Source: Sphaerotilus hippei (GTDB taxonomy: Bacteria > Pseudomonadota > Gammaproteobacteria > Burkholderiales > Burkholderiaceae_C). Taken from it: 32,527 nt of DNA. The stretch spans positions 1 to 32,527 of the forward strand of contig NZ_QJJS01000028.1 of assembly GCF_003201595.1 (NCBI RefSeq). Reading direction: 5' to 3'. A model generated the notes under the pieces. It made no database searches, was not told where the DNA came from, and saw only the letters and a list, made by a program, of their open reading frames with translations. Shown piece by piece: positions 9,693 through 26,300 of the stretch; the first letter of the stretch is position 1, and each line of letters starts with the position of its first letter. Position numbers and translations under genes: made by a program.

Positions 9693-10700
9693 GTGGCCAC
9701 GCCGGCGTGCCGGGGCCTGCGGGTGGCCATCATGACCGACGAGATCGGCTGGCACACCCGCCAGCTGCAGCGTGCATTGCGCGAGCGGGGGGCGCTGGGC
9801 CGCTGCGTCGACCTGGCCGACATCGACATCGACACCCAGGCATCGTGGCACGGCCTGCTCGTCCCCGGTTTCGGCCGCGAACTGCCCGATGCGGCGATCG
9901 TGCGGGGCGTGGCCGGCGGCAGCTTCGAGCAGGTCACCAAGCGCCTGGGGGTGCTGCATGCGCTGACGGCGCTGGGCGTGCCGGTCTACAACGATGCCCG
10001 GGCGATCGAGCGCTGCGTCGACAAGTCGATGACCAGCCTGCTGCTGCATGCGGCCGGGGTGCCGACCCCGCCGACCTGGGCCACCGAATCCGAGGCCCGC
10101 GCCCGTCGCCGGGTCGTGCGTGAAGGCGCCGCCGGCCGATCGCTGGTGCTCAAGCCCCTGTTCGGCTCGCAGGGCAAGGGCCTGCAGCAGGTCGGCGAGG
10201 TCGACGGCCGCCACCAGCCGCTGCCGGCGCTGGACCGCCACTACGGCCGGCTGGCCTATCTGCAGCGTTTCGTGCCGCCGCTGGCCACCGGTGGCGCCGC
10301 GGGCCACGACTGGCGGGTGCTGGTCATCGGCGGGCGGGCGGTGGCGGCCATGCGCCGCGTCAGCGACCACTGGGTGCACAACGTGGCCCAGGGGGCCCGC
10401 TGCGAGGCCGCCGAACTCACCCCCGCGCTGGCCGGCCTGGCCGAGGCGGCCAGCGCCGCGCTGCAGGTCGACTACGCCGGTGTCGACCTGATGCCCGCCG
10501 CCGGCCGGGATCCGGTGCTGGTGCTGGAGGTCAACGGCGTGGCCGCCTGGCGCGGCCTGCAGCAGGTGACGGACTTCAACATCGCCCGCGCGCTGGTCGA
10601 CGACCTGATCGACCGCAAGCTGGCGGGCTCGCACCTGCACCTGCGCGAGGGCGCCGTGCGGCTCCCGGCGGCCACGGCGCGTGCGCCGCGGCGTGCATGA
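9693..10700 (+). CDS. RimK-like ATP-grasp ligase of the H4MPT cluster (Orf7-like)
   Basis: This is a 335-residue ATP-grasp ligase related to RimK and to archaeal H4MPT:glutamate ligases. Visible motifs are YNDARAIERCVDKSMTSLLL (about 98-117), SLVLKPLFGSQGKGLQQVG (about 150-168, the ATP-binding region), HDWRVLVIGGRAVAAMRRVS and the metal site VLVLEVNGVAAWRGLQ near 275-290. In methylotrophs the equivalent orf7 is required for or associated with H4MPT synthesis, and addition of an acidic side-chain residue is the plausible role. The GTG start at 9693 is chosen because AGGAGG lies about 10 nt upstream inside the mch end; an in-frame ATG occurs 13 codons later. Its stop overlaps the next start as ATGA. 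Confidence 0.82.
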   Translation: MATPACRGLRVAIMTDEIGWHTRQLQRALRERGALGRCVDLADIDIDTQASWHGLLVPGFGRELPDAAIVRGVAGGSFEQVTKRLGVLHALTALGVPVYNDARAIERCVDKSMTSLLLHAAGVPTPPTWATESEARARRRVVREGAAGRSLVLKPLFGSQGKGLQQVGEVDGRHQPLPALDRHYGRLAYLQRFVPPLATGGAAGHDWRVLVIGGRAVAAMRRVSDHWVHNVAQGARCEAAELTPALAGLAEAASAALQVDYAGVDLMPAAGRDPVLVLEVNGVAAWRGLQQVTDFNIARALVDDLIDRKLAGSHLHLREGAVRLPAATARAPRRA

Positions 10701-11647
10701 GCGCGGTGATGACCCCGGTCGAACGCCCGGCCCGGCGTGCGCGACAGGCACGCCAGGCCTTCCTGCGGGCCTGCCACTGGGACGTGGCCGTGCGCAAGCC
10801 GGGCAACGTCAGCCACCTGTCGACCGGCCACGGCATGCAGGCGCGGCAGTTCATCGACAGCGCGCTGGCCTGCGCGGACCTGCTGTGCCGCCCGGGTGCG
10901 GCGGTGGGCGAGCGCATCGAGGCGGCCGTCACCGCCACGCGTGCCCGCGTCGGCTGCAACACCAACCTGGGCATCCTGCTGCTGTGCGCGCCGCTGGCCC
11001 GGGCCGCCGAGGCGCTGGAGGGACTGCCGGCCGACGCCTCGACGCTGCGTGCGGCCGTGCAGTGGGTGATGGCCGGCCTGACGCTGGAGGATGCCGCGGC
11101 CGCCTTCCGTGCCATCGCCCGCGCCAGCCCGGGCGGGCTGGGCGAGGTCCAGGCTCAGGACGTGCGCCAGCGACCCGGCGTCACGCTGCGCGAGGCCATG
11201 GCGCTGGCGTCTGGCCGCGACCGCATCGCGCTGCAGTACGTCACCGGCGGGGCCGAGCTGTTCGACGTGGGCCTGAAGGCCCTGGCGGCCGCCGATCCGG
11301 GCGGCGGGCGGCTGGGCGGGCAGGGCCTGCCGGCGACTGCGGCCCGGCCCGCCGAAGCGGCCGTGGTGCAGGCCGTCTACCTCGCCTACCTGGCCTCGGC
11401 CCCCGATTCACACATTGTGCGCAAGCACGGCCCGGCGCTGGCACAGACTGTCATGGATCAGGCCGGCCCCTGGCGCGACCGGCTGCGCGACGGGGGCGCG
11501 CTCGATGCCGACCCGGCCTGGGTGGCATGGGATGAAACCCTGAAGGCGCGGGGCCTGAACCCCGGCACGAGTGCCGATCTGACCGTCGCGACGCTGATGC
11601 TGGCCGATCTGCTGGCCTGGCCCGATGCCGCGGATGCGTTGGCATGA
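10697..11647 (+). CDS. CitG/MdcB-like (triphosphoribosyl-dephospho-CoA synthase family) protein of the H4MPT cluster (Orf5-like)
   Basis: The 316-residue protein resembles CitG-type triphosphoribosyl-dephospho-CoA synthases. It has the N-terminal VRKPGNVSHLSTGHGM substrate-binding region (about 33-48) and the RVGCNTNLGILLLCAPLARA segment (about 88-107), and is helical throughout. Authentic CitG transfers ribosyl from ATP to dephospho-CoA. In methylotroph clusters the orf5 homologue is inferred to do an analogous ribosyl or phosphoribosyl transfer in H4MPT assembly, but I know of no established reaction. Its ATG overlaps the preceding stop by 4 nt. The nearest downstream gene is fae after an 84-nt leader. 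Confidence 0.8.
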   Translation: MSAVMTPVERPARRARQARQAFLRACHWDVAVRKPGNVSHLSTGHGMQARQFIDSALACADLLCRPGAAVGERIEAAVTATRARVGCNTNLGILLLCAPLARAAEALEGLPADASTLRAAVQWVMAGLTLEDAAAAFRAIARASPGGLGEVQAQDVRQRPGVTLREAMALASGRDRIALQYVTGGAELFDVGLKALAAADPGGGRLGGQGLPATAARPAEAAVVQAVYLAYLASAPDSHIVRKHGPALAQTVMDQAGPWRDRLRDGGALDADPAWVAWDETLKARGLNPGTSADLTVATLMLADLLAWPDAADALA

Positions 11648-11669
11648 AACGTGATTTGAAGCATGTGTT

Positions 11670-11689
11670 CGCGGACAGGGATGTCCGCG
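11670..11689 (+). promoter_or_regulatory. Leader hairpin upstream of fae
   Basis: An 8-bp stem CGCGGACA / TGTCCGCG with a GGGA tetraloop sits 42 nt before the fae ATG in the 84-nt CitG-like/fae gap. The local sequence is less GC-rich than its surroundings, and a CGGAG Shine-Dalgarno-like element follows. It could mark a separate fae transcript (a stabilising 5' end) or a processing/attenuation point allowing fae to be expressed at a different level from the biosynthetic genes. Confidence 0.4.
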
Positions 11690-11731
11690 CAACAGCCCTC
11701 GAAGCACCCATTCAACGGAGACTGAACAACC

Positions 11732-12244
11732 ATGGCAAAGATCGATCGCATGATGGTGGGCGAATCGCTCATCGGTGACGGCAACGAAGTGGCCCACATC
11801 GACCTGCTGATCGGGCCGCGTGGCTCGGCGGCCGAAACCGCTTTCGCGAACGCCCTGGTCAACAACAAGGACGGCTTCACGTCCCTGCTGGCCGTGGTGG
11901 CGCCCAACCTGCTGGCCAAGCCGGCCACCGTGATGTTCAACAAGGTGACCATCAAGGGCGCCAAGCAGGCCGTGCAGATGTTCGGCCCGGCCCAGCGGGG
12001 CGTGGCCATGGCGGTGGCCGACTGCGTCGAGGACGGCACCATCCCGCTGGACGAGGCCGACAACCTCTTCGTCTCGGTGGGCGTGTTCATCCACTGGCTG
12101 GCCGAGGACGACAAGAAGATCCAGGACTACAACTACGCCGCGACCAAGGAAGCCCTCAAGCGGGCCGTGGCCGGCTCGCCCACGGCCGCCGAAGTGGTCG
12201 CGAAGAAGGGCGCCGCGGCCCACCCCTTCGCCGCCCACCTCTGA
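11732..12244 (+). CDS. fae: Formaldehyde-activating enzyme
   Basis: Condenses formaldehyde with H4MPT to give methylene-H4MPT, the entry reaction of the pathway. The 170-residue protein is very close to the canonical bacterial Fae. It opens [20 protein letters not shown] and continues [12 protein letters not shown], which puts the catalytic histidine at residue 22 as in Methylobacterium Fae. [20 protein letters not shown] and the [20 protein letters not shown] region (about 110-130) are also conserved. CGGAGA about 11 nt upstream is the likely ribosome site. Codon use looks strongly biased, consistent with an abundant cytoplasmic enzyme. It closes the plus-strand cluster and is followed at once by a terminator. 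Confidence 0.98.
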
Positions 12245-12291
12245 GCTCAGGGGTGCATCAGCACCTGAGCGTCTGAGCGCCTGATCCAGCG

Positions 12292-12319
12292 ACGAGGCCG
12301 GCTCCTGAGCCGGCCTCGT
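12292..12319 (+). terminator. Terminator-like hairpin after fae (probably bidirectional)
   Basis: A near-perfect 13-bp inverted repeat (ACGAGGCCGGCTC / GAGCCGGCCTCGT, minimal 2-nt loop, effectively 12 bp with CCTG at the tip) lies 48 nt after the fae stop, between fae and the convergent folB-like gene. The U-rich tail is weak (GTGTCGTCTG). A second, smaller hairpin with GCTCA/TGAGC arms overlaps the fae stop (12245-12270). Together they probably end both converging transcripts. Confidence 0.65.
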
Positions 12320-12349
12320 GTCGTCTGCCGCACGGGGTGGCCGGCGTGC

Positions 12350-12850
12350 TCAGGTCCGCTCGCCCGGGACGGTGCCCGCGCCCATCCACTGCAGGATCTG
12401 CGCACCGCCCACGGCGCCCGCCGGGCCACGCTCGTCGGCTTCGCTGCGGCGCCGCTCGATCATCACGCCGACCGCCTCGACGTCGTCGAACTTGCGCGGC
12501 TTGATGATGCGCACCCGCACCCAGGCCGCGCCGAAATCCACCAGCAGCATCGTGGCGATGCGCTCGGCCAGCGCCTCGAGCAGCTGCACGCCGTGGTGCT
12601 GCATCAGGCCGACCAGGCGCTCGCGCACGACGCCGTAGTCGATCGTGTCGGCGATGCGGTCGCTGCGGCAGGCGTGGGCGCGAGGCAGGCCGGCGTGCAG
12701 GTCGATGCACAGCGGCTGCGGGTGATGCAGCTCGCTGTCGTGGATGCCGATCACCGTCTGGCCGCGGAAGCCCTCGATGAAGATCAGGTCCATCGGCGCG
12801 CTGGCCGGGTTCGGGGAGGGCAGCTCGAAGCTCGGGGCGGTCATCGGCAC
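12350..12850 (-). CDS. Dihydroneopterin aldolase family protein (FolB-like)
   Basis: FolB-type enzymes cleave 7,8-dihydroneopterin to 6-hydroxymethyl-dihydropterin and glycolaldehyde, a step shared by folate and H4MPT synthesis. The family core is clear: MDLIFIEGFRGQTVIGIHDSE, then CRSDRIADTIDYGVVRERL, VQLLEALAERIATMLLVDF (with the catalytic-helix Glu) and VRVRIIKPRKFDDVEAVGVMIER. The core starts 19 residues into the chosen frame. I prefer GTG 12850 because AGGAG lies 8 nt upstream; ATG 12844 and 12793 are alternatives. The tail after residue ~145 is longer than usual. Its position against fae suggests a paralogue dedicated to methanopterin rather than folate, which is inference. Confidence 0.8.
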   Translation of the reverse strand: MPMTAPSFELPSPNPASAPMDLIFIEGFRGQTVIGIHDSELHHPQPLCIDLHAGLPRAHACRSDRIADTIDYGVVRERLVGLMQHHGVQLLEALAERIATMLLVDFGAAWVRVRIIKPRKFDDVEAVGVMIERRRSEADERGPAGAVGGAQILQWMGAGTVPGERT

Positions 12851-13021
12851 GGTGGGGTCTCCTGGGTGGGTGATCACGGACATGGCCGCCAGGCAGCAAG
12901 ATGCGAGCCGCACCGGCGCGGCATTGAGCCGGCGCAGGTTCAGCGTGCGAGCCCGTGCTAATACCGGTGACAGGGTGGACGTTCGGTGGCAAGAATGCAC
13001 ACTCTGCGAAGGATCTGCCCC

Positions 13022-15094
13022 ATGTCCCTGAGCTTGCTGGAACCCGAACGCCACGCCGCGCGTGTCTTCGACGTGGTCCGTGGCCATGTCGAAGCAGACA
13101 GCGCCGACGTGGTGGCGCAGTCCTGGCGCCGCTGCCTCGATGACTACCGCCTGCACCCTGATCGTCCGCGGCACCTGAAGGTCGTCGAGCCGCATTCGCT
13201 CGAGCAGCGCTGCGAGCGCCTGTCCGACCTGATCGACTGCGCCCGCTACGAGATGACCACGCTCTACCAGCAGCTCGCCGACACCGAGTCGGCGGTGGTG
13301 CTGACCGACACCGACGGCGTGATCCTGCACATGGTCTCGTCGGCCGAGTTCGCCGCCGAGGTCGGCCCGGTCGGCCTGCGCACCGGCGCGGTCTGGAGCG
13401 AGACCGAAGCCGGCACCAACGGCATGGGCACCTGCCTGGCGGCGGCCTGTCCGGTGGCGGTGCGGCGCGAGGACCACTTCTTCACCCATTTCACCGGCCT
13501 GACCTGCTCGGCCGTGCCGGTCTACGACCCGTCCGGGCAGATGGCGGCGGTGCTCGACGTGTCCAGCCGCTCCAGCCTGGCCCAGCAGCACCTGCTGGTG
13601 CTGCTGGGCATGACCGCCCGCATGATCGAGAACCGGCTGATCGACCGCTCGTTCCGCCATGCCCACCCGCTGCACTTCCACAGCCGGCCTGAGTTCGTCT
13701 ACACGCTGCACGAAGGCCGTCTGGCGGTGTCCGACGACGGCCGCATCCTGGCGGCCAACCGCAGCGCGCTGTTCCAGCTCGGCCTGCAGTCGGTCGCCGA
13801 CATCCGCTCGCGCCGCATCGAGGACATCTTCCAGACCTCGCAGGAAGACCTGATGCAGCGCAGCAACCAGTCGTCCTTCCATCCGGTGGTGACCTACCGG
13901 GCCAACGCCGCCCACCGCTTCTTCGCGGTGATGCGCCGCCCGGCCGAGGACCCGGCCCGCCCGGGCACCGGCGGCCCGTTCGGCCCGATCCCGTCGGCCA
14001 CGCCGCCGCGTCCGGCCGGCCCGCGCACCCCGGCGGTGGTGCCGGCCCCGACCGTCGCCGCACCCGCTGCCGGCTCGACGATGAGCGATGCGCGCCTGGC
14101 CAACCACCTGCGGGTGGCCCGGCGTGTCATCGCCCGCCAGACGCCCGTGCTGCTGAGCGGCGAGACCGGTTCGGGCAAGGAGGTGTTCGCGCGTGCGGTG
14201 CACGACGGCAGCCCGCATGCCCAGGGCCCGTTCGTCGCCATCAACTGCGCCAGCCTGCCCGACAGCCTGATCGAGTCCGAGCTGTTCGGCTACCGCGCCG
14301 GTGCGTTCACCGGCGCGCAGCGCAACGGCCGGCGCGGCAAGATCCTGCAGGCCGACGGTGGCACGCTCTTCCTCGACGAGATCGGCGACATGCCCCTGGA
14401 CCTGCAGGCCCGCCTGCTGCGCGTGCTCGAGGAGCGCCAGGTCACGCCGCTGGGTGCCGAGGAGACCGTGACCGTCGACTTCCAGCTGCTCAGTGCCAGC
14501 CACCGCAACCTGATCGAGCTGGTCGAGCAGGGGCGTTTCCGCGAGGACCTCTACTACCGCCTGGCCGGCATCGAGCTGGCGCTGCCCGCGCTGCGCGAGC
14601 GCAGCGACCGGCGCGAGCTGATCCACCACCTGCTGGTGGCCGAAGGCGGGGCCGAGGCCCGCCTGACCCCACAGGCCGAGCAGCTGCTGATGGCCTACCA
14701 CTGGCCGGGCAACGTGCGCCAGCTGCGCCATGCGCTGCGCTCGGCCTGCGCGCTGGCCGACGGCCTGCCCATCGAGCCCGAGCATCTGCCCGCGCCGCTG
14801 CGCACCGTGCGTCCCTCGGTGGCGCCCGTCGCCCTGCCGGTGCCGTGCGGGCCGGCCATGGCCGGCGAGCCGGTGCCGGTGGTGCGCGGCGAGGCCGGTG
14901 CGGCCGACGACGAGGCCGCCCAGGCCGTCGCGCGGCTCAACCCCATCCTGGCCAACGAGCGCCAGGTGCTGCTGCAGATGCTGGAGCACCACCGCTGGAA
15001 CGTCAGCAACGTGGCCAAGGCGCTCGACGTCAGCCGCAACACCCTCTATCGCAAGCTGCACAAGCTGCACATCCAGATCTCGCACACCGATTAG
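13022..15094 (+). CDS. acoR: AcoR-type sigma-54-dependent transcriptional activator
   Basis: This is a 690-residue enhancer-binding protein. The order is an N-terminal GAF-like sensor (about 60-205, with [15 protein letters not shown], the signature of AcoR-type GAF domains), a PAS-like segment (about 220-305), a Pro/Ala-rich linker (305-350), an AAA+ domain and a C-terminal Fis-type helix-turn-helix (about 660-690). The AAA+ domain has Walker A GETGSGKE (380-387), the sigma-54 contact loop GAFTGA (427-432) and Walker B LFLDEIG (449-455), so it should activate RNAP-sigma54. Relatives control acetoin or alcohol oxidation genes. ATG 13022 has AAGGA 8 nt upstream; a GTG at 12986 also opens the frame. 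It diverges from the folB-like gene. No clear -24/-12 promoter was found nearby, so its targets may be elsewhere. Confidence 0.9.
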
Positions 15095-15113
15095 ATGTTT
15101 GCATCATGGAAAC

Positions 15114-15146
15114 GCTTTCACAGCATCTCTGATGTGAAAGCTTATT
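15114..15146. terminator. Terminator between the AcoR gene and the convergent tannase gene
   Basis: A 9-bp inverted repeat GCTTTCACA / TGTGAAAGC (15114-15122 and 15133-15141) encloses GCATCTCTGA; the alternative pairing GCTTTCA-CATC-TCT-GATG-TGAAAGC also works. TTATTC follows on the plus strand and GTTTCC on the minus strand, so it can end both converging genes. It lies at the point where base composition drops. Confidence 0.65.
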
Positions 15147-15154
15147 CATGAAGC

Positions 15155-16807
15155 TCACCGGGGCGGTGCAACGCAGCGATAGGAAGAAATATGATTCGGG
15201 TCGCCCGTTTGATAGCGTGCGATTGCAGGGTAAGAGCAGAGGGGCTGATTTTTACCAGGGAAAGCCTCTCCTGTCGCAGCAAGAAGGCTCGGCTCTTTTC
15301 CGGTTTCGACCCATTGCTCGATTGCGCCTAGAGGATCGAAATCGTCGAGGGCAGGGCCGCCGCCGCAATGTGTCATGCCAGGAACCATGAAAAGCCGTGC
15401 CCATTTGGCGCGGGCTGTGACGTCGCCCCCGTTCGTGTCTCGTGTCAACGAATCAAACCACGTCATGATGTCGTGAGCGGAAAATACCGGATCTGACATT
15501 CCATGGAATGCGATCAATTTGCTGCCGCGCGTCGAAAATGTATTCATGAACGTGGACGTCGCGTCGTTGAGTGCTCCGGTCTGCTGAACGCGTGACATGT
15601 CGCGGTCAAAATCAAAAGTCAGTGTGTCGAATCCCGGGGCAGGAGGCGTCATGAAGTACCCTGTCAGCGAATCTGAACCCAAGGTCGCGTTCAAAGCATC
15701 GGGGCGTCCAGCATCCTTGGAAAAGCCAAGCTTCCAGACGCGCCATCCAGTCGACGCGATCCCCGTGTCATAGGGCCAAGAACTGTACAGAGCTTCACCC
15801 TTGCTGTTTTTGGGGCCGCCAAAGATGGCATCAAGTGCATTGACCTGCGCTTTGCTCAAACAGTCTGCCTGCTTGCCTGATGCGCATTGCAAGGCAGCTG
15901 GCTTGAAGCGACAGGCACCATAATCGTTGATCAATCCATCCTTGATTCCATCTAGCCCGTCACAAGCATCACGAACACCATTTCCTACTATTTTCAAATC
16001 TGCCTCGGAGAAAGCTTCTGATAATATTGGCCGTCCTTTTGCATCCTTCGGTGCAATTTTCATAAAAGCCTGTGTATCCCAAGCTTCTGCCACGGCGGCG
16101 CGACTAAGGCGGAAACCTGCATTGCCCGCGACGACGCCATCGAACTCTAAGGGGTAGCGTTGAGCTGCAATCATGGCCTCGCGACCACCGTTTGAACAAC
16201 CCATGAAATATGAGTGTGCCGGAGCCGAAGCATAATACTGAGTCACGAACTGCTTGGCCCGCATGGTCACCTTCCCAATCGCAGCATAGGCAAATTCAAG
16301 CCTCGCCTGCTGGTCGTTGCCAAAACTTATATCCTTTTCAGGATGGCCTCCGTCCATCGATACAACAGCATAGCCGCGGGCTAATGCGGGCAAAGCAGAT
16401 GAGCCAAGTGTCGGTACGGTGCCCAGCGCGTTAGCAAGAAAGCCATCCGAGCCACCGCCACCTTGAAACATCAGGCGCTGTTGCCAATTGTCTGGAAAAC
16501 GAATTTCAAAGCGAATTCCATAATGTTTTCCATCTGCGCCAGTACGTGGTTCGATCTCACCCTGAACGACGCAGTGTGCTGGCAACATGGCACCCCGTCC
16601 ACTGGCGCCGGTCATCATCCTTTCAGGATCGGCAGCGGCCGGACCTTCCGGTACGTATTTTGTCATGGTGATGATCGTCTTCTCTGCCTTGGAAGAAGCC
16701 ATGGCTTGGCATTTCTCATGAGCAGATGTCGCCATGGCTGGGGTTGTGCCCAGGCAGTACAGCATGGAAGCGAAAAGCAGTGATGGAGATCGTGAAGGTA
16801 TAAGCAT
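15155..16807 (-). CDS. Tannase/feruloyl esterase family hydrolase, secreted
   Basis: Family members hydrolyse ester bonds of phenolic acids (gallate, ferulate, hydroxycinnamates). The 550-residue protein has a signal peptide (MLIPSRSPSLLFASMLYCLG, ending near AMA) and the family's catalytic layout. That layout is the nucleophile elbow GCSNGG with Ser at about 205, Asp about 439 in HGMSDPV and His about 480 in PGMTHCGGG. The Cys beside the Ser (204) and the Cys after the His (481) form the family's CS-D-HC disulfide. ATG 16807 is chosen because AGGA lies 8 nt upstream and it leads straight into the signal peptide; an in-frame ATG at 16876 gives a less plausible N-terminus. It is the last gene of the mipA-regulator-hydrolase group. 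The exact substrate is not known. Confidence 0.9.
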   Translation of the reverse strand: MLIPSRSPSLLFASMLYCLGTTPAMATSAHEKCQAMASSKAEKTIITMTKYVPEGPAAADPERMMTGASGRGAMLPAHCVVQGEIEPRTGADGKHYGIRFEIRFPDNWQQRLMFQGGGGSDGFLANALGTVPTLGSSALPALARGYAVVSMDGGHPEKDISFGNDQQARLEFAYAAIGKVTMRAKQFVTQYYASAPAHSYFMGCSNGGREAMIAAQRYPLEFDGVVAGNAGFRLSRAAVAEAWDTQAFMKIAPKDAKGRPILSEAFSEADLKIVGNGVRDACDGLDGIKDGLINDYGACRFKPAALQCASGKQADCLSKAQVNALDAIFGGPKNSKGEALYSSWPYDTGIASTGWRVWKLGFSKDAGRPDALNATLGSDSLTGYFMTPPAPGFDTLTFDFDRDMSRVQQTGALNDATSTFMNTFSTRGSKLIAFHGMSDPVFSAHDIMTWFDSLTRDTNGGDVTARAKWARLFMVPGMTHCGGGPALDDFDPLGAIEQWVETGKEPSLLAATGEAFPGKNQPLCSYPAIARYQTGDPNHISSYRCVAPPR

Positions 16808-16997
16808 CTGTTTTTTCCTGCGCATGCTCTGTGGATTATGCAAAAACGTGTACCAGACTTTTGTGATTATGTGCATGATGGTCGTCTATTTAAACCTGTT
16901 GCACTAAAAATTAATGAGGCTGGTGTATTTGGTGGATTTGGCTTGCGTGATATTGGTATTATGAATTTTTAGCGTGCTCCGTAGTGTCGCCATGGCG

Positions 16998-17159
16998 TTA
17001 CAGCATGGGCTTGATGGTGTTGACCAACCACTCGCCGATCAGCATGCCCAACAATCCCAGCAATCCAATCAAGGGTGGAGCAGGGGATTTGGTATGAAAA
17101 AAACCATAAATACCTCCGGCCAAAACTCCCATCGACAAGGATACGATGTATGGTTTCAT
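16998..17159 (-). CDS. XapX-domain small membrane protein
   Basis: This is a 53-residue protein. It starts MKPYIVSLSMGVLAGGIYGF, contains SPAPPLIGLLGLLGMLIGEW, and ends NTIKPML. Two hydrophobic segments around the conserved SPAPPLI turn identify the XapX (DUF1427) family, whose function is unknown. GGAG lies 9 nt before the ATG. It sits between the DAPG-hydrolase-like gene (26 nt upstream) and the tannase gene on the same strand, so it is very likely co-transcribed with both. A role in membrane passage or sensing of the same aromatic compounds is only a guess from context. Confidence 0.8.
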   Translation of the reverse strand: MKPYIVSLSMGVLAGGIYGFFHTKSPAPPLIGLLGLLGMLIGEWLVNTIKPML

Positions 17160-17185
17160 GTTCTTGTGCTCCGGAAATTGTGGTG

Positions 17186-18088
17186 CTATTTAAACTCGGC
17201 ATAAAGTTCTGGTAAAAAACTAGCCAGATGATTCATTTCCTGCGCACAGTGAAACATCATGTCAGGCCCGAACTCTCGCAACTTCACAAAGTTCTTTGAC
17301 GACAGAATTGTGTTCGCCAAGCCGTTCACTACAGGCAGGGTCATGATTTTTCCTGTGGCGCTGTGTGTCGAACGCGAGGGCAAATTCAAGACTTCCACGC
17401 AATTCGCGAAAAATCGACTGCGCATTTCCGAACCATCCGGGGTGGCTCGGACTTGGTGGATCAGCCACGCAAATGAGAGGGGTAAGGGGGTTAGGCCACC
17501 ACGCGCCACGATCACGGTGTTTCCCGGCTTGCTGGGCGCAAACCCGACGCTCTGCGGGTCAACGAAGCGAACGGTCAGAGGAGAAAAGCTGGCGCCAAGG
17601 TATTCGTCCACATAGGATACATTGTTGATGTATTTCTGACGATCACTCAGGCCTGGTATCTGACTGCGGTCTTCGCCCATTCCGGTGTAGACATGTGCAT
17701 CTGGATGCCATAACTTGTAGCGAGCGGTTTCAGCGCCATGCCATCCGAACCACCAGTCCCACATTTCGCCTGTCACGCCGGGCATTTTCGTCAAAACCGA
17801 TACCACGATGTGTCCATCAGAGTTTAGCGTGTAGCCTGTCTCCTGAGGAAGGTAACCTGGGCGGGCCAACATGTCTGCTGCATTCGAAAGTCGGATTCCA
17901 TATTCTGCGGCAACGGGACCGGTGATCATGGCTTCGCGCGCGTGCGCCTGAATAGGTAATGCACATTTCTGAAAATATTTTGCGTAGGGTTTTGCGTGGT
18001 CCTCGGTGCGATAGCCCAGATAGCGAGCTTCGATGTCATAGCTCGCGGGAATGGGCGCCCGGTCAGCCGAAGTTAATTGGTATCGCAT
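17186..18088 (-). CDS. 2,4-diacetylphloroglucinol hydrolase (PhlG)-like enzyme
   Basis: PhlG-type enzymes are zinc hydrolases that cleave a carbon-carbon bond in acylated phloroglucinols, releasing acetate. The 300-residue length matches the family. Recognisable segments are MWDWWFGWHGAETARYKLWH (109-128), PDAHVYTG, VDEYLG (160-165) and a C-terminal FHCAQEMNHLASFLPELY containing H280-x3-E284. His 128 or 132, Glu 162, His 280 and Glu 284 line up with the four expected zinc ligands (His, Glu, His, Glu). The start has GGAG 8 nt upstream. No signal peptide is seen, so it acts in the cytoplasm. It follows the histidine kinase by 79 nt and precedes xapX and the tannase, suggesting breakdown of an acylated phenolic. 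The real substrate may differ from DAPG. Confidence 0.8.
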   Translation of the reverse strand: MRYQLTSADRAPIPASYDIEARYLGYRTEDHAKPYAKYFQKCALPIQAHAREAMITGPVAAEYGIRLSNAADMLARPGYLPQETGYTLNSDGHIVVSVLTKMPGVTGEMWDWWFGWHGAETARYKLWHPDAHVYTGMGEDRSQIPGLSDRQKYINNVSYVDEYLGASFSPLTVRFVDPQSVGFAPSKPGNTVIVARGGLTPLPLSFAWLIHQVRATPDGSEMRSRFFANCVEVLNLPSRSTHSATGKIMTLPVVNGLANTILSSKNFVKLREFGPDMMFHCAQEMNHLASFLPELYAEFK

Positions 18089-18167
18089 GTGCGTCGCTCC
18101 GTGAATCCTGTATCGCAGGTGGTTAGGCCATCAGTGCCATGACTGTCGGCGGTTTTAGAACTCTGTC

Positions 18168-19481
18168 TTAATTCAGCCAATGCAGTGTGAACGATGCGCC
18201 TATTTTGGGGCTGTCAACCGTAATTTCCCAGCCATGTGAACGTGCGATTTCCTCGCATATCGACAGGCCTAAGCCGGCGCCTTCGTGGCGGCGCTGCGGA
18301 CTACGCCAGAAACGCTCAAAAAGGTGCGGTAGGTGATTCGGTGAAATGCCTGGCCCTTGGTCCCGAACGGCAAGTGAATTCGTTTGCAGTGACAGTTCGA
18401 CCTTGCCATTTTTCGGGGAAAAGTGTAATGCGTTTTCTAGAAGATTTTTCACCAATGCGAACAGTGCCATGCGGTCACCTACAACCGTGGTGTGGGTGTT
18501 GTCAAATGTAATGCGCATGTGCACTTGACGTTTTATCGCTATGGGGCGAAGAAAATTAATGACCTCTTGGGTCAATGGTAATAGTTGAATTGGCTCGATC
18601 CTGAAACTGCTGGTTTCACTGACTTCTGTCAATAAAAGTAGTTGCTGTACTTGTCGTGTCATGTGATCTATATCGCACAACAACTGATCTTGTTGCAAGT
18701 TGCCGTTTAATTCAATTTGACCACGTAATAGTGACAAAGGTGTTTTGAGTTCGTGTGCCGCGTCAGCCAAAAAGCGTTGCTGATTGCGAAATCCTGATTC
18801 CAGTCTACTCAGTGCTTCGTTGAAAGCCTGCACCAAGGGTCGCAATTCGCTGGGTAGGTTGCGATCAGTCAAGCGTTGAGAAATTCTTCTTGGTCCGATT
18901 TCTTTGGCTTGAGCCGAAGCGATATGGAGTGGGCGCAGAAGCCGCTTCACGGTCAACGACAGAACAATTCCGAGAACGACTGCTGACAATAATGTTGTAG
19001 CGAGTGTTGCCCCGCCAATCCTCCGGTTGGAATCCAAGTGGATCACAGTCACCAGTCGCTCACTGACCTTGGCCTCGATGATCCAAGAGATTTTTCCTCG
19101 ATTGATCGGCAGTGAGTAGGTCGACATTGGAGTTTCAGCGGCGCCTGAAAAATGCGGTATATCGCGTGATTTCAGGTGTACATGGCCGGAGGGATCACTC
19201 ACCTGATAAGCCAAGTCTCGCGGAAGCGCCTCAAGCAGCCATGGGAGTTGGTCCGGCCAATCCAGGTTGACAGGGCTGCCTTCTGCATCGAATTCCAGTG
19301 ACTGGGCAATTATATTTGCCAACTTCTCTGCACTGTGGAGTGAGCCTCTGTCCGTCTGTGGGGAAAAAGCAAACCAGACAGTCGTGCCGACACATGAAAG
19401 TGTTGCAACCATGGCTGCCAAGTAGGTTGCCATCAGCCTGATTGCCAAGCTTTGGTGCCAGTCAGCCCTCAATGGCTGCAT
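18168..19481 (-). CDS. Two-component sensor histidine kinase
   Basis: This 437-residue membrane kinase is of the QseC/PmrB type. It has one transmembrane helix at about 14-40, a periplasmic sensor of roughly 110 residues, a second helix at about 157-180, HAMP, then the H-box FLADAAHELKTPLS with the phosphorylated His at about 243. The N-box LVKNLLENALHF, the G1 loop VRDQGPGIS and the G2 loop GAGLGLS of the ATPase domain follow. ATG 19481 is preferred because GGAG lies 6 nt upstream; another ATG at 19499 is possible. Either way it overlaps the response regulator gene, which indicates coupled translation. The ligand is unknown; genomic context suggests phenolics or envelope stress. Confidence 0.93.
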   Translation of the reverse strand: MQPLRADWHQSLAIRLMATYLAAMVATLSCVGTTVWFAFSPQTDRGSLHSAEKLANIIAQSLEFDAEGSPVNLDWPDQLPWLLEALPRDLAYQVSDPSGHVHLKSRDIPHFSGAAETPMSTYSLPINRGKISWIIEAKVSERLVTVIHLDSNRRIGGATLATTLLSAVVLGIVLSLTVKRLLRPLHIASAQAKEIGPRRISQRLTDRNLPSELRPLVQAFNEALSRLESGFRNQQRFLADAAHELKTPLSLLRGQIELNGNLQQDQLLCDIDHMTRQVQQLLLLTEVSETSSFRIEPIQLLPLTQEVINFLRPIAIKRQVHMRITFDNTHTTVVGDRMALFALVKNLLENALHFSPKNGKVELSLQTNSLAVRDQGPGISPNHLPHLFERFWRSPQRRHEGAGLGLSICEEIARSHGWEITVDSPKIGASFTLHWLN

Positions 19482-20136
19482 ATCCAACTCCGCGGACATT
19501 GTTGATGCGCAGGTTGGAACCTATATCGGTTAGTTTGCGCCGTATTCTGTGCAGGGCTACATCCAGCGCGTTGGGCGTCACTGCCTCCTGCAAGCCCCAA
19601 GCTGCCGCATCGAGGGTTGAGCGCCGTACAGGACTGCCTTCATTTCTGAATAATGTCAGCATGATTTGCATTTCCGCACGTGCCAGCGGGCAGGTATAGT
19701 TATTGCATAGCATCACACCTTGCTCCGGTATCAGACGCACGTCACCCCAGCTTGGATTGAGTGCTACTTGGATTGGCGGTCGCCGCAGCAATGCGCGAAC
19801 ACGCGCCACCAGTTCGGACATTGGAAAGGGCTTACTCAAATAATCATCGGCGCCTGCTTCAAGTCCATCCACTCGATCGTGTAGGGCGTCTCTTGCCGTG
19901 AGCATCAGGCATGGAATGAACTGACGATCTGTCCGCAAGCGGCGCACCAAGTCAAGGCCATCTCCATCAGGCAGTCCTCGATCAACGATGATGCATGAGT
20001 AGTCCATGGTCTGCAGTGCTTCCCAAGCCAAGTTCGCACGTTCGACCGTATCGCATGCCAGGCCAGCGTTATCCAGTGCCTGCCTCACCAAGGCTGCCAA
20101 GCGATCATGATCTTCCAGCAAGAGCACGCGATACAT
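19462..20136 (-). CDS. OmpR/PhoB-family response regulator
   Basis: This 224-residue regulator has a receiver domain (1-115): acidic pocket LEDHD (8-11), phospho-acceptor Asp52 in IIVDRGLPDGDG and Lys102 in LSKPF. A winged-helix DNA-binding domain (about 130-222) follows, ending RINNVRGVGYAAIEG, the typical C-terminal recognition helix and wing. It starts 15 nt after the mipA stop and overlaps the kinase start by 20 nt, forming a mipA-regulator-kinase operon. OmpR-type dimers bind tandem half-sites about 10-11 bp apart. Two exact TTACCGG copies 11 bp apart lie upstream of mipA, so autoregulation of the operon is likely. Confidence 0.93.
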   Translation of the reverse strand: MYRVLLLEDHDRLAALVRQALDNAGLACDTVERANLAWEALQTMDYSCIIVDRGLPDGDGLDLVRRLRTDRQFIPCLMLTARDALHDRVDGLEAGADDYLSKPFPMSELVARVRALLRRPPIQVALNPSWGDVRLIPEQGVMLCNNYTCPLARAEMQIMLTLFRNEGSPVRRSTLDAAAWGLQEAVTPNALDVALHRIRRKLTDIGSNLRINNVRGVGYAAIEG

Positions 20137-20151
20137 GGTGTGATCAATACC

Positions 20152-20925
20152 TTAAAAACTATATAGATAGCTCGCCCGAACGGCTGATATACCACTGCGC
20201 CCCACCAGCGGGCTGTCCTTGATGGACGATCCAAGGATCGTGTGACTCACGTCTACGGAGGTGCTGTGCTTCGGAGCAAGAGAAATGTTCATGCGCAGTC
20301 CCAATTCAGTGTTGATGCTCGATGTGCCATCGTATGCAGCGCGGCCTACTCGCGATTCGGTGGCACGAATACCATAATAGTAGTCAACATATGAACTGTC
20401 CTGCCATACCATGGCTAATCGAGGCATTACATTCACGCTGCCAAACTGCGATCGATGACTGGCTTCCAGCCTGATTTGCTGACCACCGCTTCGGTTTGAA
20501 GCGTCGCCCAGCCATTCGGCAGATAAATTTGCCAGAGGGAGACGCAAGTCGGTTCGGGCGCCCAGCCACAAGCCTCCATTGCGTTTTTCCATGCCTTGAA
20601 GTTCAGCTGCATCGCTCGCCTCATAGCCTGCATCCGAATAACGTGCACGCAGAGTAAAGGAGACCAATCCAGCTGAAGGCAACTTCACATCGAGTGAAGG
20701 ACCGAATAACCGTGCATAATCATTTTCGAAAGTCAGAAGGGGTAGAATTTTTGTGTCGGTTTTGACGCTGCGGTAAGGCGATGTCTCCCGGCCGATTCCC
20801 AAGCCCAAGCCCCAGCGGGAATTTTTCTCTTCTTTGGGTGGGCTTTCGGCTTGAGCTACGGCCGAATGCAGCGTCATGGCGAGCGTGAAGGCGGCAATCA
20901 ATGGGGGGCGGGATGTGAAGTACAT
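20152..20925 (-). CDS. MipA/OmpV-family outer-membrane protein
   Basis: This is a 257-residue beta-barrel protein. A signal peptide (cleavage after AQA near residue 26) is followed by WGLGLGIGRETSPYRSVKTD, alternating amphipathic strands, and a C-terminal ASYLYSF ending in Phe, the outer-membrane insertion signal. MipA was described as an MltA-interacting scaffold and OmpV as a porin-like protein; many family members are induced by two-component systems responding to cationic or phenolic stress. It leads the mipA-regulator-kinase operon, with a GAGA-like ribosome site. A role in entry or exclusion of the compounds handled by the downstream hydrolases is inference. Confidence 0.88.
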   Translation of the reverse strand: MYFTSRPPLIAAFTLAMTLHSAVAQAESPPKEEKNSRWGLGLGIGRETSPYRSVKTDTKILPLLTFENDYARLFGPSLDVKLPSAGLVSFTLRARYSDAGYEASDAAELQGMEKRNGGLWLGARTDLRLPLANLSAEWLGDASNRSGGQQIRLEASHRSQFGSVNVMPRLAMVWQDSSYVDYYYGIRATESRVGRAAYDGTSSINTELGLRMNISLAPKHSTSVDVSHTILGSSIKDSPLVGRSGISAVRASYLYSF

Positions 20926-20971
20926 GTTGATCTTTCTCGATGGTCAGAATTGAATGTTAGTTCGCTTTGAC

Positions 20972-20989
20972 TTACCGGATTATTACCGG
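20972..20989. promoter_or_regulatory. 11-bp-phased direct repeat, candidate response-regulator box upstream of mipA
   Basis: TTACCGG occurs at 20972-20978 and again at 20983-20989, exactly 11 bp start to start, 47-64 bp upstream of the mipA ATG. OmpR/PhoB-family regulators bind such head-to-tail half-sites. The position and the identity of both copies make this the best candidate site for the regulator encoded at 19462-20136. Confidence 0.6.
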
Positions 20990-21249
20990 CCAACGGTTGA
21001 CGGCATGGGTCATTCGAGGTGAGTTAATTTTTGCTGTACCGGGTCATCCATGTTGGTGGCGATGGCGCGTACATATGTACGACCCTGTCGATGATTGTGG
21101 TTCATCTATTTTGAACGATGGCCTGAGTCGATCTTCATGCCAGCCGCATTGCCAACCAACCACTTGCTTTGGCCGCATCTGTTCTTGTGCATCATTGCAA
21201 TGACTCAGATATGTCGGTGGTCTCAGGCTTATTGAGTGGCCAGAAGATA
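20990..21249. other. Non-coding gap between mipA and TetR genes, with two palindromes
   Basis: The mipA-tetR gap is 324 nt in all (20926-21249); this entry covers the part beyond the TTACCGG repeat. I see no convincing gene in it. It contains CGTACATATGTACG (21068-21081), a 14-bp perfect palindrome, and TCATTGCAATGA (21192-21203), a 12-bp perfect palindrome. Either may be an operator for one of the TetR proteins or part of the end of the efflux operon. No strong intrinsic terminator was found after tetR. Confidence 0.4.
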
Positions 21250-21936
21250 TCAATTTTTTGAAATAACCAAACCCAAACCATCAAGATAAGTCTTGACTGC
21301 CAATCGGCCTGAAGCGATCGCAGCATCGCTGCCCAAGCCAAGGGAGCACTGCGCTGCCAATCCATGTCCGATCGCCAGCAAGCCGAGTGCCGCATATTGA
21401 GGGTCCACTGTCTGTTCAAGCCTGCCTTCAAGTTTCAGAGCTTGAATCAATGTGCAGATTTCATTCGCACGATGTGATGAGATTAATTTCTCATTCCATG
21501 CTGGATCGATCAGCAGTGAATGGCATTCGGAGTTCCGGATGACTCCCATCAGTCTGAGCAGCCGAACTTCATCGTCAAGGTGTTGAAGCGGCTTCAACGC
21601 GAGCTTGGCTAGGTGTTCAGATATTTCTGCCGCTTCTTCGTCGATGGAGCTTTTGGCGGGATATTCTGCAAGCCATAGACGTCGTTCCAGCACAGCTCGA
21701 AGGATCGAGCACTTGCTGTCGAAGTGCCAGCGGAAGGCGCCTCTGGACAGCCCGGCGATTTCGGCAATATTTTCCTGCGTAGTGCAGGAAAAACCCTGTT
21801 TCAAAAATAGCTCTTCAGCGGCATCCAGTAATTTTTCCCTGGTTTTTTGCGAGGCGGTTCCAGTGCTGATTGATCGGCAGGAACGGCTGCCTGTCCCTGC
21901 TGGAGCCGTACCTGACTGACGACTCAGGGAGTCCAT
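21250..21936 (-). CDS. TetR/AcrR-family regulator at the end of the RND operon
   Basis: This 228-residue repressor-type protein has a TetR helix-turn-helix at about 30-78 (TREKLLDAAEELFLKQGFS, then IAEIAGLSRGAFRWHFDSK) similar to AcrR/TtgR regulators of efflux pumps, and a helical C-terminal ligand-binding domain. The first ~28 residues are Ser/Thr-rich and may not be translated if a later start is used, but no other Met is available. Its ATG lies inside the last codons of the outer-membrane channel gene (13-nt overlap), so it is co-translated with the pump it presumably controls. Ligands of such regulators are usually pump substrates, often phenolics or antibiotics. Confidence 0.9.
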   Translation of the reverse strand: MDSLSRQSGTAPAGTGSRSCRSISTGTASQKTREKLLDAAEELFLKQGFSCTTQENIAEIAGLSRGAFRWHFDSKCSILRAVLERRLWLAEYPAKSSIDEEAAEISEHLAKLALKPLQHLDDEVRLLRLMGVIRNSECHSLLIDPAWNEKLISSHRANEICTLIQALKLEGRLEQTVDPQYAALGLLAIGHGLAAQCSLGLGSDAAIASGRLAVKTYLDGLGLVISKN

Positions 21937-23318
21937 CCGCCACCCAATCCCTTGTACAAAGCCAGATCGTTGTTCAGCTTGTTTAAGCGAAGACTGATCA
22001 AACCCTGCGCTGCGCTGTACCTGCTGCGTTGCGCATCCAGTACCGGCAGATAGCTGTCAACGCCATGGGTGTAACGGGCTTCGGAAAGTTTCAGCACCTG
22101 CTCACTGGCGGTCAGCAGCGCGCGCTGCGACTGCAATTGTGCAGAGATGGATGTGCGCTGTGACAGCCCATCCGAGACTTCCCGGAATGCGGCCTGAATC
22201 GCTTGCTCATACTGCGCCAAGGCAATGCCTTGCGCTGCCTTGGCGCTGTCGAGATTGGCTTGATTGGCCCCACCATCGAAGATGGGCAAGCTGATTTGTG
22301 GCACAAAGCTCCAGGCGCTCGAGCCACTCTTGAACAGATCAGACAAGGCTGTGCTGCTGCTGCCTGCCGCCGCAGTGAGGCTGATGCGTGGATAAAACGC
22401 CGCACGTGCAGCGCCAATATTGGCGTGACTTGCCTTCAACTGATGCTCGGCTTGCAGCACGTCAGGGCGTCGCAACAACAACTCGGACGGCAGACCAACG
22501 GGCAGATCACCCATGGCATTGAGTTCGTCGACCAGCGCTGCAGGCTGCAGCGCTTCTGGCAATACTGTGCCGACCAGCAGCGACAATGCATGCTGGTCAG
22601 CGGCTACTTGTCCTGTGTAGCGAGCCACGTCACCTCGTGCGGTTTCGACGCTCGTCTCGACCTGCCGCAAGCTGAGTTCAGTGCCGTAACCGTTGTTCAG
22701 GCGCGCCTGGGTCAGCGCCAGCGTTTCGGCCTGACTGCGCAGAGTTTCCCGTGCAAGCCCCAGTCGTTCCAGATCAGCAGCAAGGCCCAGCCAAGCTTGG
22801 GCAACCGAGGCCACGACGCTCAGTTGCGTAGCGCGACGTGCCTGATCTGTGGCGAGGAATTGCTCCAGTGCTTGTTCGTTCATGCTTCGCACTCGCCCGA
22901 ACAAGTCCAGTTCGTAGGCGGTGATGCCCAAGTTGGCACTGTACTGACGTCCAATCACGGCCGAACCCGCACCAGACAAGCTGGCCGGTACGCGACTGAT
23001 GGAACCGGCTGCATTGGCAGCAACGCTGGGCAACGATTGTGCGTCCTGAATTTGGTACGTCGCGCGTGCCCTGTCGATGTTCAGTGCAGCGATCCGCAGA
23101 TCACGGTTGTGTTGCAGGGCGCTCTCGATCAACTGACGCAGCGTTGCATCGGAAAAAAATTCTTTCCAGCCAATATCCGGAGTGGTTGTGGAGGTTGACG
23201 TCTCATCATAGGCAGCTGGTATGGGCGCTGCCGGCTGTTCATAGCGTGGCGCCAAGTTGCTGCAAGCCACCAGCGAAGATGCCAGAGCCACGATGGTCAA
23301 AGAGAGGAAGCGGGGCAT
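21924..23318 (-). CDS. RND efflux outer-membrane channel lipoprotein (NodT/OprM family)
   Basis: This 464-residue TolC-like channel forms the outer-membrane exit duct of the tripartite pump. It starts MPRFLSLTIVALASSLVAC with a lipobox, so Cys19 should be lipidated. NLAPRYEQP and the repeated coiled-coil/beta-strand halves of the NodT family follow, including LRIAALNIDRARATYQIQ and the segment LLLRRPDVLQAEHQLKASHA, the family hallmark. The frame extends upstream to 23486, but ATG 23318 is clearly right: AGGAGG lies 9 nt before it and it starts 1 nt after the pump stop. It overlaps the downstream TetR gene. Confidence 0.94.
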   Translation of the reverse strand: MPRFLSLTIVALASSLVACSNLAPRYEQPAAPIPAAYDETSTSTTTPDIGWKEFFSDATLRQLIESALQHNRDLRIAALNIDRARATYQIQDAQSLPSVAANAAGSISRVPASLSGAGSAVIGRQYSANLGITAYELDLFGRVRSMNEQALEQFLATDQARRATQLSVVASVAQAWLGLAADLERLGLARETLRSQAETLALTQARLNNGYGTELSLRQVETSVETARGDVARYTGQVAADQHALSLLVGTVLPEALQPAALVDELNAMGDLPVGLPSELLLRRPDVLQAEHQLKASHANIGAARAAFYPRISLTAAAGSSSTALSDLFKSGSSAWSFVPQISLPIFDGGANQANLDSAKAAQGIALAQYEQAIQAAFREVSDGLSQRTSISAQLQSQRALLTASEQVLKLSEARYTHGVDSYLPVLDAQRSRYSAAQGLISLRLNKLNNDLALYKGLGGGWTP

Positions 23319-23319
23319 C

Positions 23320-26300
23320 TCAGTGGCCCTCCTGCAATGAGGTGGAGCTGTCGACAGTCGATGCCTTGCGCGGCACCAGTCTCTGCACGACAACAAAAAA
23401 CAGGGGTACGAAGAAAATCGCCAGAACAGTGCCGGAAACCATGCCACCCACCACCGCAGTGCCCAGCGCATTTTGTGCACCAGCACCGGCGCCTTTGCTG
23501 GTCACCAGCGGCAGAACGCCCAGAATGAAAGCCAGCGAAGTCATCAGGATGGGACGCAGGCGCTGGCCGGCTGCCATGATGGCTGCCTCGACCACACCCT
23601 TGCCTTGCGCCACCAGCTCCTTGGCGAACTCGACGATCAGGATCGCATTCTTTGATGCCAGGCCTACAGTCGTGAGCAGGCCAACCTGAAAGTACACATC
23701 GTTCATCTTCCAGCTCAGCAGTGCACCGACAATGGTGCCCAGCACGCCCAGCGGCACCACCATGATCACCGAAACCGGAACTGCCCAACTTTCATAGAGT
23801 GCGGCCAAGCAAAGGAAGACGACGAGAATGGATACCGCATACAACACGGCTGCCCGGCCTCCAGCTTCGCGCTCTTGGCGTGAGACACCCGTCCACTCGA
23901 AGCCTATGCCCTTGGGCAGTTCGGCTACATGCTTTTCCACCAGATCCAGGGCCTGTCCGCTGGACAAGGCGCCAGGCAGTGCCATGCCAAGAATCTCGAC
24001 CGAGGGTACGCCGTTGTAGCGTTCCAGGCGCGGCGAACCGACGACCCAATCAGCAGTTGCGAAGGCACGGAACGGAACCATGGTGCCGCTTGCGTTGCGT
24101 ACATGCCAGCGGTCAATGTCGCCAGGCAACATGCGATGAGGTGCATCAGCCTGCATGAAGACCTTCTTGACGCGGCCGCGGTCAATGAAGTCATTGACGT
24201 AACTGCTGCCCCAGGCGGCGGACAGGGTGTTGTTCACATCAGCCATTGACAGGCCGAGCGCCCCGACCTTCTCCTGATCGATCTCGAGTTTCAGTTGAGG
24301 TGTGTCTTCCAGTCCGTTGGGTCGGATGGCCACGAGGCCCGGCTCCTTCATCAGTGCTGCAAGCAACTGGTTGCGTGCAGCCATCAGCGCTTCATGACCC
24401 AGGTTGGCTCGGTCCTGCAGCATCAGGTCGAAACCACTGGCATTGCCCAGTTCGGACACGGCAGGAGGTGCAAACACGAAGGCTGAAGCATCACGGAACT
24501 TGGACATGGCCATCATGGCTGCACCAGCCACGTTCTGTGCCTTCTGGTGTTTGGCCGTGCGCTGGTCCCAGGGCTTGAGCTTGATGAAGGCAAAGCCGGC
24601 GTTCTGGCCACTGCCCGCAAAGCTGAAACCTGCCACGGTGAAGATCGAATCCACCGAGTCCTTTTGCTCGACCAGAAACTGGTTCTCCAGAACTTTCAAT
24701 GCTTTGATCGTACGGTCCTGAGTTGCACCTGCAGGCAGTTGCACCACGGCAAACAGCGTGGCTTGGTCCTCGTCAGGAAGAAAGCCGCCGGGAATCTTCG
24801 TGAAGACGAATCCCACCAGCCCTGCAAGCGCGGCATAGATGACCATGTAACGGCCTGCGCGGTTGACCATGTGGCGCACTGCGCCCTGATAACCAGTGTT
24901 GCTGCGATCAAACAGTCGGTTGAACGCACCAAAGAAGCCAGTGGTAGCCAATGCATGGCCTTTGTGCACAGGCTTGAGCAGCGTCGCGCACAGTGCCGGC
25001 GTCAGGATCATTGCCACCAGGACTGACAAGGTCATCGCCGAAACGATGGTGACGGTGAACTGGCGGTAGATGACACCCGTGGAACCTCCGAAGAACGCCA
25101 TGGGAACGAACACGGCAGCCAGCACGAGGGCCACGCCAACCAGAGCTCCCGAGATCTGGCCCATGGATTTGCGGGTCGCCTCCAGTGGAGAAAGCCCTTC
25201 TTCGCTCATCACCCGCTCGACGTTCTCGACGACGACGATCGCATCGTCGACCAGCAGGCCGATGGCCAATACCATCGCCAGCATGCTCAGCGTGTTGATC
25301 GTGTACCCGAAGGCTGCCAGCACGCCGAAGGTACCCAGAAGCACGACCGGCACTGCGATCGTAGGAATCAGCGTGGCACGGAAGTTCTGCAGGAACAGGT
25401 ACATCACCAGGAACACCAGCACCACTGCCTCGACCAGGGTCTTGACCACTTCCTCGATGGACAGGCGCACAAATGGAGTGGTGTCGTAGGGCTTGATCAC
25501 GTCGACACCTTGAGGGAAGAAGGGCCGTAACTCCTCCAATTTGGTGTCGATGCCACGTACCGTGGCCAGCGCGTTGGCGCCCGTGGCCAGCTTCAGTGCC
25601 AGACCCGCTGCCGGCTTGCCGTTGAACCGGCTGGAAACGTCGTAGCTTTCGCTGCCCAGTTCGATGCGAGCCACATCCTTGAGCCTGACTGAAGATCCTG
25701 CAGTCGAGGTACGCAGCAGAATGTTCTCGAACTCAGCAGCCGTCTTCAGTCGAGTCTGGGCGCTGATGGTCGCGTTCAACTGCTGGCCCTGCACCGCAGG
25801 CAAGCCACCGACCTGACCTGCCGAGATCTGGGCATTCTGTGCCGTGATGGCCGCCTTCACGTCGGTCGGCGTCAACTTGAACTGGTTGAGCTTGTTCGGG
25901 TCCAGCCAGATGCGCATGGCGTATTGCGACCCGAACAGTGTCGTGTCACCCACACCCTCGACCCGGCTCAGCGGTTCCTGGATGTTGGCTGCCACGTAGT
26001 CCGACAAGTCGCTGCCAGTCATCCGCCCGTCGGTGGACACGAACGCCAGCACGTTCAGGAAGTTGTTGGCGGACTTGGTGACTTGGACACCTTGCTGCTG
26101 CACCTCTTGTGGCAGCAACGGCGTGGCCAGGGCCAGCTTGTTCTGTACCTGAACCTGCGCGGTGTCGGGGTTCGTGCCTGTCTTGAAAGTCAGCGTGATG
26201 GTGACCGCGCCGGAAGACTCGCTGGTCGAAGAGATGTACTCGAGCTGATCCAGCCCTTTCATCTTCTGCTCGATGACCTGGGTGACCGTGTCTTCCAGTG

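Follow-up and report, generated by a model that had tools for sequence, protein, structure and literature searches.

Do six closely spaced genes of the bacterium Sphaerotilus hippei (Burkholderiales) act together in sensing and degrading acylated phenolics? They lie on contig NZ_QJJS01000028.1 of assembly GCF_003201595.1, which was analysed at its full length of 32,527 nucleotides (the window, equal to the complete contig C28 of its genome). An initial annotation had read them as one sense-and-degrade unit directed against compounds such as plant tannins or the Pseudomonas antibiotic 2,4-diacetylphloroglucinol (DAPG). We find that the unit is a composite of three sub-units: a gene for an outer-membrane protein of the MipA family followed by a two-component system (TCS), a gene for a PhlG-like hydrolase with one for the small protein XapX, and an esterase gene. 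The theme that fits most plausibly is phenolic chemistry, because the best plasmid homologue of the esterase is part of a hydroxycinnamate-type cluster and XapX genes elsewhere stand beside PhlG-like and quercetinase genes. We propose, with a probability slightly below one half (0.48), that the locus is an island gained by horizontal transfer, which serves to sense and cleave acylated phenolics of plant type.

All six open reading frames (ORFs) are present on the minus strand, and the family assignments and spacing first given for them hold: every Pfam match exceeds its curated cut-off, and recomputed coordinates agree with the annotated gaps. The first gene (20152-20925) encodes a MipA/OmpV-family outer-membrane protein (PF06629, 118.8 bits) with a signal-peptide-like N-terminus by hydropathy. 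After 15 nucleotides (nt) comes an OmpR-type response regulator (RR) of the PmrA/TctD/QseB-like kind (19462-20136; PF00072 and PF00486; best NCBIfam matches PmrA at 171 and TctD at 169 bits, both below their cut-offs). It overlaps by 38 nt, counted from the first ATG of the latter, with a sensor histidine kinase (HK; 18168-19499) that has HAMP, HisKA and HATPase_c domains and hydrophobic segments at about residues 18-41 and 161-188. The PhlG-like gene (17186-18088; PF18089, 185.9 bits, gathering 22.7), whose product has no signal-peptide-like start, follows after 79 nt, and the gene for XapX/DUF1427 (16998-17159; 53 residues) after another 26 nt. The last gene (15155-16807) encodes a serine hydrolase of the tannase/feruloyl-esterase family with a signal-peptide-like N-terminus (PF07519, 369.9 bits, cut-off 29.8). 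It begins 190 nt further on if the start is at 16807, with AGGA just upstream, or 121 nt if the ORF is extended to its first ATG at 16876. Such spacing suggests that the six genes may form a single transcript; a scan of 15000-21400 gave no excess of promoters (4 vs 5.3) or terminators (6 vs 6.1) over shuffled sequences.

The PhlG-like hydrolase and XapX

Relatives of the hydrolase were surveyed at 109 loci (L009-L096 and L155-L175; 107 without two repeats), with flanks of up to 10 kilobases (kb), or 1.5 kb in 21 loci. They were drawn from five of the six other genomes of the window's order (taken wide), the best 80 of 563 stretches encoding a relative, three of 21 plasmid matches and 21 further loci from two families. 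Within the order itself PF18089 is sparse, with a match in 7 of 399 genomes, six of them over the cut-off.

An AlphaFold2 model built from 38 subfamily sequences (the window's and 37 from the best 80 loci) has a mean predicted local distance difference test (pLDDT) score of 96.3. Foldseek aligned it to 5xey, 5xe5 and 3hwp at E values of 2e-20 to 3e-16 (3hwp at 3e-19) and, beyond those, to Bet v1/PYL-like folds at about 1e-4 to 1e-3; PMC8003664 ascribes a Bet v1-like fold domain to PhlG. The nearest solved relative by sequence as well as fold is the phloretin hydrolase of Mycobacterium abscessus (5xe5, 5xey; 27-28% identity), with 120 bits in phmmer as against 97 for PhlG, the DAPG hydrolase (EC 3.7.1.24; PDB 3hwp; 26% identity in Foldseek). 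We take the zinc ligands of PhlG to be H129, E160, H270 and E274, numbers that fit the alignment given an 8-residue chain offset. The predicted ligands H132, E162, H280 and E284 align to them and are conserved in all 38 rows of the subfamily. Y121, N132 and Y229 are presumably substrate residues of PhlG, and we likewise assume a role for H214. H214 and Y121 have equivalents in H211 and Y124, each kept in all 38 rows. The other two positions differ: N132 corresponds to T135, which is variable (Asn in 3/38), and Y229 to F226, which is Phe in every row, whereas the phloretin hydrolase keeps Tyr there.

On this evidence the protein is very likely a zinc C-C hydrolase of the PhlG type; prediction and conservation support its fold and metal site, and its substrate is one we infer. 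Because the match to the PhlG equivalog NF047887 reaches 99.2 bits against a cut-off of 600, and because Phe replaces Tyr229, that substrate is probably not DAPG. As a literal substrate DAPG was ruled out on the same score and the two differing positions (N132 and Y229), and the suggestion that this antibiotic is the target of the locus thus appears unlikely.

A tree of 57 rows, including 44 of the best 80 loci, pairs the window enzyme with a Paludibacterium sequence (support 100/99) and then with sequences from Amycolatopsis and Pseudonocardia (95/93), so its relatives are spread over both Pseudomonadota and Actinomycetota. Elsewhere in the survey, a match to an outer-membrane efflux channel adjoins the PhlG gene of G235 (L011), and a Patulibacter contig (L062) carries two PhlG-like matches in tandem (18-722 and 868-1707).

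XapX genes near PhlG genes were searched for with a hidden Markov model (HMM) made from 23 XapX genes and with tblastn; a regular expression had matched, in the best 80 loci, the copy at L027 alone, and the two methods were used in its place. Intact XapX next to a PhlG-like gene occurs in the window and in two Streptomycetaceae genomes, in three arrangements. In Streptomyces actuosus (L027, G409) the order is phlG-XapX-XapX, with a TetR gene before and an MFS gene after, and these two XapX matches are the only ones in the genome. At L159 (G482) the order is XapX-XapX-phlG. Two probable remnants add to these: a XapX fragment adjoining a broken phlG at L160 (G605; HMM E 1e-6), and, after phlG at L028, what is probably a truncated XapX, recognised from a single tblastn match (56% over 50 columns, E 3e-7) and its frame. 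In 103 of the 107 other PhlG loci neither method found XapX, and the 14 other genomes of L017-L031 gave no PF07235 match. All three intact cases fall on separate branches of one 16-row clade (92/92).

Among 249 Streptomycetaceae genomes, XapX matches are present in 12, over the cut-off in 8, and stand beside PhlG in two of those 8 (G409 and G482). Counting weak XapX matches, XapX and PF18089 occur together in 4 of the 249 (12 and 6 singly; p 4.5e-5). A second association involves the quercetinase QueD: in two more of the 8, genomes G659 and G644, XapX lies 14 and 23 nt downstream of this gene on the same strand, measured between match ends. The QueD assignment follows from the G659 protein, which matches 5fli at E 8e-106, and from the 77% identity of the G644 protein to it. 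Of these two places (L179/L194 in G659, L181/L195 in G644), the one in G659 has another XapX copy next to it as well as a gene of the Amidohydro_2 family. In the remaining four of the 8 (G460, G485, G501 and G525) no PhlG match was found beside XapX; a search for QueD in the last three gave none in G485 and only weak matches elsewhere in G501 and G525.

In the window's order XapX is present in 15 of 399 genomes, and in the other 14 the XapX loci showed no match to PhlG within 1.5 kb. Four of seven plasmid XapX loci are annotated, and have hydrolase, amidohydrolase, DoxX or MFS genes nearby. With isochorismatase, Amidohydro_3 and other neighbours on record, XapX is not confined to the company of phenolic enzymes. 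Copies beside isochorismatase or Amidohydro_3 genes have the same 50-residue SPAPP motif; the window's copy is single-domain and stands beside a PhlG-like gene. It passes the cut-offs of both family models (PF07235 61.9 vs 27.1 bits; TIGR03510 56.3 vs 27.8) and is predicted to form a two-helix hairpin (helices 2-21 and 28-49) around the SPAPP hinge, which we treat as a hint, since the model was made from three rows and has a pLDDT of 71. To our knowledge XapX/DUF1427 has not been assigned a function. A census of 2005 reported DUF1427 from plant-associated Proteobacteria alone and described it as a domain of unknown function (PMC554113).

The sensor genes and the esterase

A search of 300 genomes of the order detected MipA relatives in 41 of them, and 30 of their loci were compared. 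The order MipA-RR-HK is found at three, namely in the window and in G007 and G138, with 55-60% identity for the RR and 32-36% for the HK. The latter two are the best MipA matches after the window, and neither carries the enzymes. As the other 27 loci gave no match to the window's RR or HK within about 1.5 kb, pairing of MipA with a TCS of this kind is a minority trait in this order. A short PhlG match (71 residues) in the MipA locus L138 overlaps the mipA match there and was put down to chance. The host genome itself has a second MipA-family gene (G000:C10:165876-166562; 30% identity); the 12 kb searched there contain no match to the remaining unit proteins.

According to PMC10936184, MipA acts together with ParRS as a co-sensor in the outer membrane to raise MexXY, and in a survey of 50 MipA homologues a TCS adjoins most mipA genes. 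In the light of this work the sensing block is a known kind of module. With the MipA-MipB/ParRS polymyxin-sensing module of P. aeruginosa the window shares the MipA family, an adjoining OmpR-type TCS and the proximity of genes for a resistance-nodulation-division (RND) pump. It differs in having hydrolases behind the TCS and in lacking a MipB-like ORF beside mipA: in a search limited to the surroundings of mipA, the neighbours are the RR and a TetR gene, and the longest ORF within 20925-21250 encodes 78 residues.

The esterase is closest among solved structures to MHETase (8ekg, E 1e-101). With the MHETases and feruloyl esterases of PF07519 it has in common the family, the Ser/Asp/His triad and the pair of adjacent cysteines, all kept in the alignment (GCSNGG, HGMSD, MTHC). 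The pocket residues differ: S131, R411, F415 and S416 of MHETase align to G, A, T and G in a hand-read alignment in which the last three positions lie next to a gap, so that their register is uncertain. The roles of these pocket positions, and the occurrence of glycine at position 131 in 91% of family members, are given in PMC7568301, and on the pocket residues an MHETase function was rejected. The best plasmid homologue (Roseomonas mucosa, 52.7%) lies at a locus with a p-hydroxycinnamoyl-CoA hydratase/lyase, an AMP-binding protein and an MhpT transporter; the locus of a Rhizobium homologue is not of hydroxycinnamate type. The window's enzyme may be a feruloyl esterase or depside esterase.

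The low-GC region and its other genes

The guanine-plus-cytosine (GC) fraction of the window is 0.72 over 1-15100, 0.52 over 15101-21960 and 0.60 beyond. Judged by composition, the region from 15100 to the contig end at 32527 is probably an acquired island. Insertion of its edge at a tRNA gene was considered and rejected, for there is no tRNA gene anywhere in the window. This low GC, and likewise the two features upstream of mipA, were absent from the initial annotation. The first, on the same strand at a distance of 324 nt, is a gene for an AcrR/MtrR-like TetR-family regulator (21250-21936, minus strand). The second is an RND efflux operon (21924-27636, minus strand) composed of adaptor (26488-27636), pump (23320-26466) and outer-membrane channel (21924 to about 23321). 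Divergent from this operon, on the plus strand (27772-31873), are genes for an AefR-like TetR regulator, a patatin-like protein and a methyl-accepting chemotaxis protein.

On the high-GC side, a plus-strand set for tetrahydromethanopterin (H4MPT)-dependent C1 metabolism (5513-12244) comprises genes for a GHMP kinase-like protein, methylene-H4MPT dehydrogenase, Mch and Fae. It is followed by an AcoR/DhaR-like GAF/sigma-54 activator gene (12986-15094, plus strand) convergent with the esterase gene, the last of the island. Between these two, at the GC step, an inverted repeat GCTTTCACA...TGTGAAAGC (15114-15141) was read by eye; perhaps it is a shared terminator. In the host genome there are dioxygenase matches of the LigB type in four places and of the intradiol type in three, so that aromatic products could be used; these are broad families, which also match in control genomes.

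Competing explanations and a possible mechanism

The originally proposed dedicated pathway against acylated phenolics survives in part. A C-C hydrolase and a phenolic-ester hydrolase do adjoin sensor genes, but conservation as one six-gene system is not supported: the complete set was found neither in the 107 other PhlG loci nor in the other MipA loci compared. By the rule set in the initial annotation itself, which asks for conserved co-occurrence, the evidence speaks against the six and in favour of the sub-units, and we rejected the idea of a conserved unit. As a tentative and rather doubtful extension of the phenolic theme, we suggest that the small membrane protein XapX works as a partner to enzymes by which plant polyphenols with a phloroglucinol ring are released or opened. 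PhlG-like hydrolases and QueD would have recruited it independently, and it would handle product transport or membrane channelling. The window would then hold one instance, a compact polyphenol-scavenging island with a MipA two-component sensor and a depside or feruloyl esterase. The cases are few, with two genomes each for PhlG and QueD in addition to the window and the remnants, and the statistics become modest once weak matches are dropped.

A number of observations weigh against such interpretations. Firstly, the partners rarely meet. The Paludibacterium protein, nearest to the hydrolase among the matches listed (59-61%), has no partners within 10 kb and only a divergent TetR gene. At the 107 other PhlG loci tblastn with the window proteins found neither the esterase nor MipA, while its RR/HK matches there were confined to L055 and L088, both far from PhlG. 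A TCS of this kind adjoins only three of the 30 MipA genes, and the 190-nt gap before the esterase could split transcripts. Secondly, the XapX evidence has weak members. The fragment at L160 scores below the PF07235 cut-off, and the remnant at L028 was detected neither by PF07235 nor by the XapX HMM. Only three of the 16 clade rows have intact XapX beside PhlG, and the clade support of 92/92 is below the star level of the tool. Limited to XapX matches over the cut-off, the Streptomycetaceae co-occurrence falls to two genomes (8 and 6 singly; p 0.013); even in the wider count of four, one (G642) has a weak XapX match on a contig other than that of its PhlG. In the window's order there are two co-occurrences (15 and 7 singly of 399; p 0.025), of which G133 has its two genes on different contigs. 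Finally, Pfam searches at six XapX loci of the order found Amidohydro_3 in three and isochorismatase in two (either or both in four of six) and a phenolic enzyme in none.

Alternatively, the MipA-TCS block, the PhlG-XapX pair and the esterase may be separately moving pieces brought into tandem by chance, acting on different substrates with no common pathway or signal. We consider this a possibility of real weight. The sensor triad exists without the enzymes in G007 and G138, PhlG-XapX pairs occur without sensor or esterase, the two esterase homologues examined sit apart from any such genes, and the complete set was seen once. Chance tandem accounts less well for the common strand, for the 38-nt overlap and the gaps of 15-79 nt in the first five genes, and for the similar GC of all six (0.475-0.554).

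An unlikely alternative is that the TCS senses envelope stress for the neighbouring RND pump, in the manner of MipA-ParRS-MexXY (the link reported in PMC10936184), with the hydrolases as minor passengers downstream. The RND operon and a TetR gene lie directly upstream on the same strand, and the triad of G138 adjoins an RND pump, from whose operon it is divergent (L177), echoing the arrangement in the window. The window's RND operon comes, however, with its own TetR gene, mipA is not accompanied by a MipB-like ORF, the triad of G007 has no RND match within 13 kb, and what follows the TCS is hydrolases and not a pump. Very improbable, despite the PhlG-like fold and metal site, is a dedicated defence in which the TCS senses DAPG and the enzyme degrades it to monoacetylphloroglucinol, given the equivalog score, the T135 and invariant F226 replacements, the closer phmmer match to phloretin hydrolase, and the control of known phlG by the TetR protein PhlH rather than a TCS, as PMC8003664 has it.

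If the phenolics island is real, a possible course of events can be outlined. By N-terminal hydropathy MipA is assigned to the outer membrane, XapX and the kinase to the inner membrane and the PhlG-like enzyme to the cytoplasm, and the esterase would be exported. On the precedent of MipA-ParRS, MipA and the overlapping kinase/regulator pair might detect stress from phenolics or at the envelope and activate the genes that follow. The exported esterase would cut galloyl, hydroxycinnamoyl or depside ester bonds in the periplasm or outside the cell. In the weakest step of the scheme, XapX may aid the movement of products across the inner membrane or their anchoring there. In the cytoplasm, the PhlG-like enzyme would then use zinc catalysis to cleave the C-C bond that joins ring and acyl group in an acylphloroglucinol or a compound resembling a dihydrochalcone, and the upstream RND pump probably exports toxic compounds.

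Taken together, what is new is that XapX turns up repeatedly beside enzymes by which flavonoid-like molecules are opened. That it is linked both to PhlG-like genes and to quercetinase genes, in Actinomycetota as well as in a host that has an outer membrane, offers a first testable role for this protein. The subfamily with an invariant Phe at the Tyr position of PhlG predicts a C-C hydrolase of different substrate range, and the unit of S. hippei would offer a tractable set of sensor and enzymes for phenolics.

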